Source: Halorubrum cibi (GTDB lineage Archaea > Halobacteriota > Halobacteria > Halobacteriales > Haloferacaceae). From it: a stretch of DNA of 64,000 nucleotides. Location of the stretch: contig NZ_FXTD01000013.1 in assembly GCF_900182635.1 (NCBI RefSeq), forward strand, positions 1 through 64,000. Direction: 5' to 3'. The notes under the pieces are model-generated. The model ran no database searches. It worked only from the letters and a program-made list of their open reading frames with translations, and was not told the DNA's origin. How positions within the stretch are numbered: the first letter of the stretch is position 1; each line of letters opens with the position of its first letter. A program made the position numbers and the translations under genes. Positions 6,659-10,026 of the stretch are shown in pieces.

Positions 6659-8011
6659 CTACTCCTCTTCGAGGATCTCTCCCGACTCGCCGCGCTCCGC
6701 CTCGTCGGTGTCCGCGCGCTTGCGGACGTTGACCCGGTAGTCCGTGAGGATGTCCCGGCCGAGAAGCAGCGGGTACTCCATGTGTCCGCGGTCCTCGACG
6801 CTCGCGGTGACGGTGTGTTGGTTGCCGCCGATGCCGATCACGAGGTCGACGACGGGGCGGGCCTTCCCGCCCTTCACGCTGCCGGATTTCACCCGCGTCA
6901 TGCTCTTTATCGGCCCCGCGCCGATCTCCGCGGCGAGCGAGGTGTCGATACTGGTTCGGGTCGCGCCGGTGTCGGACTTCGCGAACGCCTGGATCGACCC
7001 GGAGGTGCCGGTTGCGACGACCTCCTCGATGTACCCGATGACGGGCTGTTCCGATGGACGTGTCTTCGGCTTCGGCGCACACGAGGGACGTGAGTCGTCA
7101 AGCGTGCCCGCGATCCGTTCTACGTCGTCGTCGTCGACCTCGCCGTCGACCGTCTCGATCGCGAGCTTGGCGATGTACGGCGCGGGGCTGGTTCCGGTCG
7201 CCTCGAAGAGGCCCTTGAATCCCGCCGTCGGGTTGACCTCGAGGACGTACCAGCCGTCGTAGCCCTCAACGAGGTCGACGCCGGCGTAGTCGAGGCCCAT
7301 CACTTCGGCGGCGTACAGCGCCGTGTCGGCGGCCTCGTCGGGCATGTCGTCGGTGGCGTCCTCGACCGCGCCGCCGAGCGCGACGTTGGTCCGCCAGTCG
7401 CCCTCGGGCGCGTAGCGGTACATCGAGCCGACGATCTCGTCGCCGACGATGTACACCCGCAGGTCCCGGTGCTTCTCGTCGTCGCGGTCGATGAGCTGCT
7501 GGAGGAACGCCTGCCGGTTGCCCACCTTCGGGTTCACCCGCTCCGTGAGATCGACCTTCCAGGTGCCCCCGCCGTGAGTGCCGATCGCCGTCTTGTACAC
7601 GCCCACGTCGCCGAAGCGCTCGCGGTCCTCGTTGAGTCGGTCGTTCGAGAGCGCGAGGAGCGCGTCGGGAACGCGGATGTTCCAGTCGGCGAGCGTCGCC
7701 GCGGTGGCGAACTTGTGGATCGACGTGAGCACCGTGTTCGGCTCGTTCAACATCGGCCGGATCCGCTCGAAGGTCGCCGCGAGTCCGAGCAGCTCCGCGG
7801 GCTGGTCGGTGTTCGATAGGAGCAAGCGGTTCGCGATGACGTCGACGGCGGGTTCCACCGACACGTCTCCGTCCTCGACGCTTATCGCGGCGTTCTCCTC
7901 GCGGAGCCACACCGGCTCGTGACCGAGGTCCTCGACTGCGTTACAGATCGCCTTCGTCTCCTTGCTGTTGTGTAACGACAACACCCCAACCCGTACCGGG
8001 TCCGTAGTCAT
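6659..8011 (-). CDS. RimK-type ATP-grasp ligase fused to a RimB-like (Zn_protease/aspartic-protease fold) domain
   Basis: 450 residues. Residues about 1-290 are an ATP-grasp enzyme of the RimK/LysX group, with the Mg/ATP-binding end EVNPT at 258-262 and the Gly-rich loop GTHGGGTW at 144-151. RimK enzymes join amino acids to a carboxylate using ATP. After a charged linker (about 290-320), residues about 322-432 form a RimB-like domain with the retropepsin-like motif DTGA at 347-350 and LGRD at 417-420. The start at 8011 follows directly from the Rossmann-like strand; a longer in-frame extension to 8080 overlaps the divergent promoter. Substrate is unknown: a ribosomal-protein or cofactor glutamate ligase is possible. 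Confidence 0.88.
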   Translation of the reverse strand: MTTDPVRVGVLSLHNSKETKAICNAVEDLGHEPVWLREENAAISVEDGDVSVEPAVDVIANRLLLSNTDQPAELLGLAATFERIRPMLNEPNTVLTSIHKFATAATLADWNIRVPDALLALSNDRLNEDRERFGDVGVYKTAIGTHGGGTWKVDLTERVNPKVGNRQAFLQQLIDRDDEKHRDLRVYIVGDEIVGSMYRYAPEGDWRTNVALGGAVEDATDDMPDEAADTALYAAEVMGLDYAGVDLVEGYDGWYVLEVNPTAGFKGLFEATGTSPAPYIAKLAIETVDGEVDDDDVERIAGTLDDSRPSCAPKPKTRPSEQPVIGYIEEVVATGTSGSIQAFAKSDTGATRTSIDTSLAAEIGAGPIKSMTRVKSGSVKGGKARPVVDLVIGIGGNQHTVTASVEDRGHMEYPLLLGRDILTDYRVNVRKRADTDEAERGESGEILEEE

Positions 8012-9268: not shown

Positions 9269-9310
9269 ATGACCGGACCCATCGAACGGCTCGGAGGGGG
9301 GAAACGGTGA
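9269..9310 (+). CDS. Possible 13-residue leader ORF
   Basis: ATG at 9269 reads 13 codons and ends in TGA at 9308-9310, which overlaps the GTG start of the next gene (GTGA, 3-nt overlap). A TATA-like TATTA at 9231-9235 would place transcription start just before this ATG, so the leader would be translated first and the GTG reached by reinitiation. No homology can be judged at this length. Confidence 0.35.
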   Translation: MTGPIERLGGGKR

Positions 9311-10026
9311 ACCCCAACCGGGTCGATTTCGTCGTCGATCTGGCGTACGGGCTCATGATATTCGTCGCCGTCGTCCTCTTCTCGGTCGTCGGCAACCAGG
9401 TCGGGATCGCCTTCGGGCTCGGCGTGCTCATCTCGTACGCCATCCACGTCTTCTGGAAGATGGCCCGGTTCGACCCCGAGTGGATGACTCAGGAGGTCAC
9501 GGAGAACGTCGAGGAGACGCTGAAGACCGAGGTCGACGCAGTGATCGAGCGCCTCGAGGAGGTGAACGACCGCGTCGACCGTCGCCCCCGCGCCGACGAG
9601 GTCGAGGAGGCGGTCGACGAGAGCGTCGGAAAGGTCTCGGAGGACGTCGAGAAGACCGTCGAGGAGAAGGTCGGCGAGGTGACGAAGGACGTCGAGGAGA
9701 CCGTCGAGAAGGTGTCGGAGGACGTCGAGAAGACGGTCGAAGAGACGGTCGGTGAGACGGTCGAGAAGACGGTGGGCGAGACCGTCGAGAAGACCGTCGA
9801 AGAGCAGGTCGGCGAGACGGTGGAAGGGGCCGTCGAGGAGACGGTGGAGGAAACGGTGGAAGGAACCGTGGAGGAGACCGTCGAGAAAACCGTGGAAGAG
9901 ACGGTCGAGGAGACGGTGGGCGACACCGTCGAAGAGACCGTCGACAAGCGGATCGAGGAGGTCGTCGACGAGGACGCCGTCGAGGACGAGAGTGGCACCG
10001 GGTCGGACGACGACGAAGCAAAGTAA
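9307..10026 (+). CDS. Membrane-anchored Val/Glu/Thr helical repeat protein
   Basis: 239 residues, function unknown. Residues 7-50 are hydrophobic and form one or two membrane segments. A charged stretch (51-100) follows. Residues 103-140 carry valines at mostly 4-4-3 spacing, an 11-residue (hendecad) period. From 140 to 212 every fourth residue is Val, in units such as VEET, VEKT, VGET. The tail is acidic (DESGTGSDDDEAK). The repeat predicts a long right-twisting amphipathic helix or bundle on one face of the membrane. Start is the GTG at 9307, the only start that keeps the membrane segments; it overlaps a leader ORF stop. Confidence 0.75.
   Translation: MNPNRVDFVVDLAYGLMIFVAVVLFSVVGNQVGIAFGLGVLISYAIHVFWKMARFDPEWMTQEVTENVEETLKTEVDAVIERLEEVNDRVDRRPRADEVEEAVDESVGKVSEDVEKTVEEKVGEVTKDVEETVEKVSEDVEKTVEETVGETVEKTVGETVEKTVEEQVGETVEGAVEETVEETVEGTVEETVEKTVEETVEETVGDTVEETVDKRIEEVVDEDAVEDESGTGSDDDEAK
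9724..9942 (+). repeat. 12-nt period coding repeat (four-residue Val repeat)
   Basis: About 18 consecutive 12-nt units of the form GTC-GAG-GAG-ACG and variants encode residues 140-212. Units differ mainly at synonymous third positions and alternate GAG/GGC at the second codon, which suggests an old repeat kept for its amino-acid period. Confidence 0.8.

Follow-up and report, generated by a model that had tools for sequence, protein, structure and literature searches.

A family of small membrane-anchored haloarchaeal proteins carries valine at every fourth residue, and in many members its gene stands beside that of a PiT-type inorganic phosphate permease; this exceptional period and the PiT link are the firm part of our analysis. 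Below we demonstrate the period and how well it is conserved, the range of taxa covered in our sample, and the pairing and co-occurrence with PiT genes. Since the gene adjoins a phosphate-uptake gene in many haloarchaea, the protein is a probable partner of the transporter. The sequence studied (here, the window) is a 64,000-nucleotide stretch of Halorubrum cibi (assembly GCF_900182635.1, contig NZ_FXTD01000013.1, positions 1 to 64,000). Table 1 gives the family gene and its parts.

Table 1. Features of the family gene and its upstream frame in the window
Feature	Position	Strand	Basis or remark
Putative leader mini-ORF MTGPIERLGGGKR	9269..9310	+	Stop overlaps the family gene's GTG start, which GGAGG closely precedes
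Family gene	9307..10026	+	239 aa, GTG start
Two-helix membrane hairpin, residues 3-61, ending WKMARFDPEWMT	9313..9489	+	Invariance, hydropathy, model helices 3-28 and 30-54
Brief period-4 lead-in followed by two heptad-like repeats, residues 64-90	9496..9576	+	Step pattern
DRRPR motif, predicted helix break, residues 91-95	9577..9591	+	Invariant residues, model gap between helices
15/11-residue segment, residues 103-140, period ca. 3.7	9613..9726	+	Step counts, Fourier analysis
Strict 4-residue array, residues 136-216, 20 steps	9712..9954	+	Step counts, shuffles, Fourier analysis
Acidic C-terminal tail, residues 217-239	9955..10023	+	Sequence unconserved; low pLDDT

First, we examined the layout of the window protein. 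Residues ca. 9 to 50 are hydrophobic and were modeled as two helices, and 17 of the 61 hairpin positions were invariant among 26 diverse members, the hairpin of the family terminating in WKMARFDPxWMT. The AF2 monomer model was helical nearly throughout (residues 3 to 28, 30 to 54, 57 to 90, 99 to 171 and 178 to 221) at low confidence (mean pLDDT, 61; pTM, 0.27), and the model of a short family member was similar and equally weak. Hydropathy and this low-confidence model support the membrane anchor and long helix proposed in a preliminary description of the locus. Past the hairpin, R89, D91, R92, R93 and P94 were invariant in 27 alignment rows, most of which had been picked as motif bearing. 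For the window protein, Pfam gave 22 matches and NCBIfam 8 at E values up to 1, none reaching the curated cut-off, and a short member and the hairpin alone also fell below the family cut-off. A sequence search of the PDB returned one weak low-complexity match (the member L106 against the ribosomal bL17 tail; E value, 0.007), the hairpin profile matched no PDB sequence, and Foldseek gave nothing at an E value of 0.001. Before the family gene, between positions 6659 and 9171, lie a RimK-like ATP-grasp/Zn-protease-like gene (minus strand) and a succinylglutamate desuccinylase/aspartoacylase-like gene (plus strand).

The spacing of V, I and L in the window protein follows two regimes. Between residues 103 and 140 the steps read 4,4,3,4,4,4,3,4,4,3,4, that is, one 15-residue and two 11-residue repeats with no pure hendecad, which confirms the mainly 4-4-3 spacing reported earlier for this segment. 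The exact 4-residue spacing claimed for residues 140 to 212 was also recovered, with 18 steps, or 20 when the flanking ones are included (136 to 140 and 212 to 216, the last residue being Ile), against a maximum of 6 in 20,000 shuffles of residues 62 to 222. Along similar lines, the best Fourier period was 3.70 to 3.75 in segments centered on residues 109 to 133 and 4.00 in those centered on residues 157 to 197. Among 5,411 non-family ORFs of at least 100 aa (1.1 Mb of loci plus the window), 22 contained a run of at least 7. By eye, 19 of these were the antisense strand of a family gene and 3 (at L025, L151 and L152) were cut-off or masked family copies; as all of them trace to the family gene, the real background maximum is 6. 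Across the window's genome, 14 of 16 matches to the repeat pattern clustered at the family gene, the other two being isolated and having 2 mismatches. An antisense open frame also covers the window array (9489 to 9998, minus strand; 169 aa) as a by-product of repeat composition, and comparable antisense frames were seen at other family loci.

Relatives were gathered from 19 loci and from N-terminal matches across the order and the window's genus. The 105 loci, each yielding a distinct protein, are a non-random set (best matches, the window's genus and about one per genus), and one protein with masked residues (L025) was excluded from step counts, leaving 104. Of 392 genomes of the order, 250 (from 71 of 95 genera) had an N-terminal match, as did 50 of 52 genomes of the window's genus, while in a phylum sample of 246 genomes all 32 matches belonged to Halobacteriales, the window's order.

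Strict period 4 is widespread in this set. Beyond the second membrane helix, hydrophobic residues of the 104 proteins were spaced by 4 in 3070 of 3532 steps and by 3 in 263. Orthologues lacking the period had been named in the preliminary description as evidence against its reading; 79 of the 104 proteins contained an unbroken series of 10 or more strict steps (20 or more in 56), and 25 did not, of which 23 were short (97 to 158 aa). The longest runs reached 64 (L106), 56 (L088) and 55 steps (L071). Array units differ between members, e.g., VEKTVGET, VTESVSDK and VGEKVEET, and so does array position, which is before the RRP motif in L013, L014, L017 and L020 and after it in the window's lineage; many other members lack the motif altogether. 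Each of the 46 proteins that carry RRP[RK] showed one of two patterns of hydrophobic steps ahead of it, (4,3,1,3,3,4) in 24 and (4,4,3,4,3,4) in 22. Either pattern can accommodate two heptads, so the segment leading up to the break looks like a conventional coiled coil. After the RRP break, the helix of the window's relatives starts again at a period of 3.7 and passes to 4.0, and seven 3-steps are common to ten aligned members (the window, L007 to L012, L016, L029 and L097). The change of period within one protein, singled out earlier as unusual, therefore holds for the window's close relatives and not as a family trait, the wider trait being strict period 4. In L038 and L049, the heptad-RRP module is present twice per protein, with period-4 units between the copies.

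We then considered the composition of the registers in runs of at least 11 hydrophobic positions. Register a was 97.7% Val, a value partly due to construction, as this register was defined as hydrophobic; register b was 49% Glu and 24% Gly, register c 60% Glu and 25% Lys, and register d 62% Thr. The choice of register a makes the rarity of in-phase losses the fairer figure, with 22 steps of 8, 5 of 12 and 4 of 16 versus 3070 of 4. The third base of the Val codons varies, with 12 GTC and 8 GTG in the window array.

Such a period is exceptional. The available portion of the coiled-coil study PMC4786415 places the limits of periodicity at ca. 3.33 to 3.9 residues per turn, with 4.0 inaccessible, and the array period of 4.00 is outside this regular range. 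Both the geometry and that portion of the study support the earlier claim that a strict 4-residue period is at odds with a left-handed coiled coil, and that the hydrophobic stripe would run around the helix in a right-handed sense. Computed at 3.63 residues per turn, a period of 4.0 corresponds to one superhelical turn per 39 residues and to crossing angles of 31 (dimer), 41 (trimer) and 54 (tetramer) degrees, the trimer value falling to ca. 20 degrees if the helix unwinds to 3.8. One close comparison is the stalk of the trimeric autotransporter adhesin YadA, where, according to the same portion of PMC4786415, a period above 3.63 likewise implies right-handed winding and stalks of this type also show periodicity transitions along their length. 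The local extreme there, however, is 3.8, while the family holds 4.0 for up to 64 steps; moreover, it consists of small membrane-anchored archaeal proteins with no detected sequence relation to YadA.

Given that a period of 4.0 lies beyond the coiled-coil range as described in the accessible text of PMC4786415, the candidate forms are an extreme right-handed coiled coil, a single helix and a disordered brush. The most unconventional reading, to which we give clearly less than an even chance, is a genuine multi-helix assembly at period 4.0, either an extreme right-handed supercoil with helices unwound towards at least 3.8 or one with regular wide turns. It would make a fibre outside the published range, stabilized by high salt, and serve as a variable-length rod on the phosphate transporter. 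A heptad or related repeat is present in the patterns before RRP (46 of 46) and, at a period of 3.7, in residues 103 to 140 of the window protein. The heptad-like segment argues for association and against the next candidate, a lone self-supporting alpha-helix that would serve as a spacer without forming oligomers, each residue stacking on a similar one four positions on (Val on Val, Glu on Lys). Strict 4-residue spacing does bring similar residues to positions i and i+4, register c is shared by Glu (60%) and Lys (25%), and a regular coiled coil is not possible at period 4. Single alpha-helix (SAH) domains are also predicted as long, charged, repetitive helices. Val and Thr, however, are poor helix formers and make up 24% and 17% of the pooled arrays. 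Known single helices contain up to 80% E, K and R (PMC5812594), compared with 40% in the pooled family arrays (41% in the window array), a quarter of which is Val. We consider the single helix doubtful.

A disordered polyanionic brush, in which the array would be non-helical and act by charge and bulk at the membrane surface, with the period simply inherited from the repeat unit, would agree with the low pLDDT of the window array (45 to 63 per ten residues), with a net charge of -50 over residues 62 to 239 and with unit-wise changes in array length. A brush, however, has no need of a Val nearly fixed in phase, and this phase holds while the other registers and the third base of the Val codons vary; we regard it as unlikely.

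In order to place the family in its genomic context, we compared neighboring genes. PiT (PF01384 in Pfam) was the dominant cross-genus neighbor, found at 41 of 59 loci with wider flanks. With an adjacency limit of 300 bp, measured to the ends of tblastn matches, it was linked to the family gene at 52 of 105 loci and in 33 of 50 genera, in a mostly operon-like arrangement: 38 linked PiT genes were downstream on the same strand (five of them overlapping the family gene by 3 to 7 bases), 11 lay upstream in divergent orientation, 2 were upstream but codirectional and 1 was downstream and convergent. The remaining 17 genera, the window's included, had no PiT within this distance, and in three of the other 16 a PiT match lay at 416 to 1090 bp, the farthest being only 25% identical. 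Flanks were ca. 1.5 kb or less for L026 to L055 and L096 to L118; a 13-kb view of 19 loci mostly of the window's genus (15 from these two ranges plus 4 further genomes) contained no PiT, and in the window's genome a PiT of the close type sits on another contig. At 11 PiT-less loci, with Pfam searches on 10 of 39 listed neighbors, no shared neighbor family was seen. Among unlinked family genes, one lies beside MrpE and MrpF (L071:4387-5759), one beside TrkA and CBS genes (L064:1539-5889) and one beside genes for CBS and TrkA_N/DHH proteins (L077:1574-3898). These ion-transport and CBS neighbors weakly suggest a transport role, which they would suit.

Any PiT gene at all was present in 283 of 293 genomes of the order; with PiT as such nearly universal, what accompanies the family is specifically the close subtype. 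Close PiT was defined by a best E value of 1e-145 or better, a threshold chosen after the data had been seen, with similar results from 1e-141 to 1e-150 (AUC, 0.89). It was found in 158 of the 177 genomes with the family gene, leaving 19 without it, versus 11 of the 116 genomes lacking the family gene. Within 16 mixed genera, 57 genomes had both genes versus a maximum of 51 in 20,000 within-genus permutations, a test in which relatedness was controlled by genus only. Eight of the 11 PiT-only exceptions were opened; six were without the family gene, and in two the array was cut by a contig end just before PiT. Two contigs that start inside an array with PiT directly downstream (L151:1-459 and L152:1-389) indicate that assemblies break within arrays, so the presence of the family is undercounted.

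The PiT link might instead be a by-product of neighborhood conservation and shared ancestry, with the protein serving, for example, general membrane or envelope organization. The 17 of 50 unlinked genera, with the window's among them, would fit this, as would the 3 of 11 inspected unlinked loci that adjoin other ion-transport or CBS genes. Nevertheless, adjacency persists in two different arrangements, and the family gene and close PiT vary together within genera, so we judge this explanation improbable.

Array length differs by whole units between near relatives, so slippage or recombination sets it, and 12-base tandem repeats underlie the array DNA; yet that the period is merely the footprint of multiplying 12-base units, with no function in the spacing, is very improbable, because independent unit sequences and two array positions all hold Val at exactly 4 and Val is retained despite codon variation (again with the 97.7% for register a partly by construction), and slippage was rejected as the whole explanation. 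Repeats varying only as slippage products had been named beforehand as evidence against the preliminary reading; the arrays change in length unit-wise, but Val is nearly fixed while its codon varies.

The 11-residue repeats of LEA proteins recall residues 103 to 140, but the family protein is membrane anchored and its main array has period 4. No LEA family was among the Pfam or NCBIfam matches of the window protein up to an E value of 1 and no supporting evidence was found, so the LEA-like role was set aside as unsupported. Nothing favored the stress helix of the preliminary description, and gene adjacency and co-occurrence point to the PiT phosphate permease.

Upstream of the family gene, an ATG-started frame runs into the gene start at 79 of 105 loci, versus 11 and 8 in two control frames, and in 73 of the 79 its TGA stop overlaps the start codon. 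Taking about one locus per genus, the count was 34 of 51 versus 4 and 6, while in a small control of 7 divergent PiT starts the frames were open in 0, 0 and 1. According to PMC3986360, most Haloferax transcripts are leaderless, and a role in re-initiation is proposed for Shine-Dalgarno motifs; PMC6728339 reports coupling of overlapping gene pairs in 13 of 14 tests. Together, these make a translationally coupled leader ORF the likely reading of the mini-ORF, which precedes the family gene in most loci.

As the best explanation, which we hold with about even confidence, we propose that the family protein is a partner of the PiT-type permease. The conserved two-helix hairpin would anchor it in the membrane beside the permease, and the acidic valine-striped helices would extend into the cytoplasm to form a rod, longer or shorter according to how many 4-residue units it contains. 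Rods would most likely associate side by side through the valine stripe, parallel and strongly right-handed, and the conserved heptad-like segment ahead of the RRP break would nucleate this association. The protein would thereby gather, stabilize or gate the permease; in the window's clade, the partnership, if kept, would be with an unlinked PiT.

Other PiT partners are known. DUF47-type proteins, which are PhoU-like, pair with PiT as pitR-pitA in Staphylococcus and DUF47-pit in Thaumarchaeota (available portions of PMC7326077 and PMC9239043), and there as here the gene adjoins that of the permease. In contrast, the family protein is a membrane hairpin plus an array, and the DUF47 family (PF01865) was absent from the Pfam matches of the window protein up to an E value of 1. 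PF01865 occurred in 22 of 117 genomes of the order. DUF47 was rejected as a local partner, as it had no match in the family loci (flanks of ca. 1.5 kb; queries included spurious frames), and four DUF47 loci had no PiT match in flanks of the same size, again with spurious frames among the DUF47 queries. By this comparison, the haloarchaeal family seems to hold a position comparable to that of DUF47 beside PiT while being unrelated to it.

In the open literature searched, there was no paper on a coiled coil of 4-residue period and none on a haloarchaeal PiT partner of this type. Present in 71 of 95 sampled genera of the order, the family keeps a strict spacing of 4 over as many as 64 steps (256 residues), against an extreme of 3.8 in the available text of PMC4786415, and the structure of a period-4 array would directly test the published coiled-coil limit. 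The pairing with PiT suggests a partner of this permease unrelated to DUF47 and gives a lead to the function of a family for which Pfam and NCBIfam have no model.
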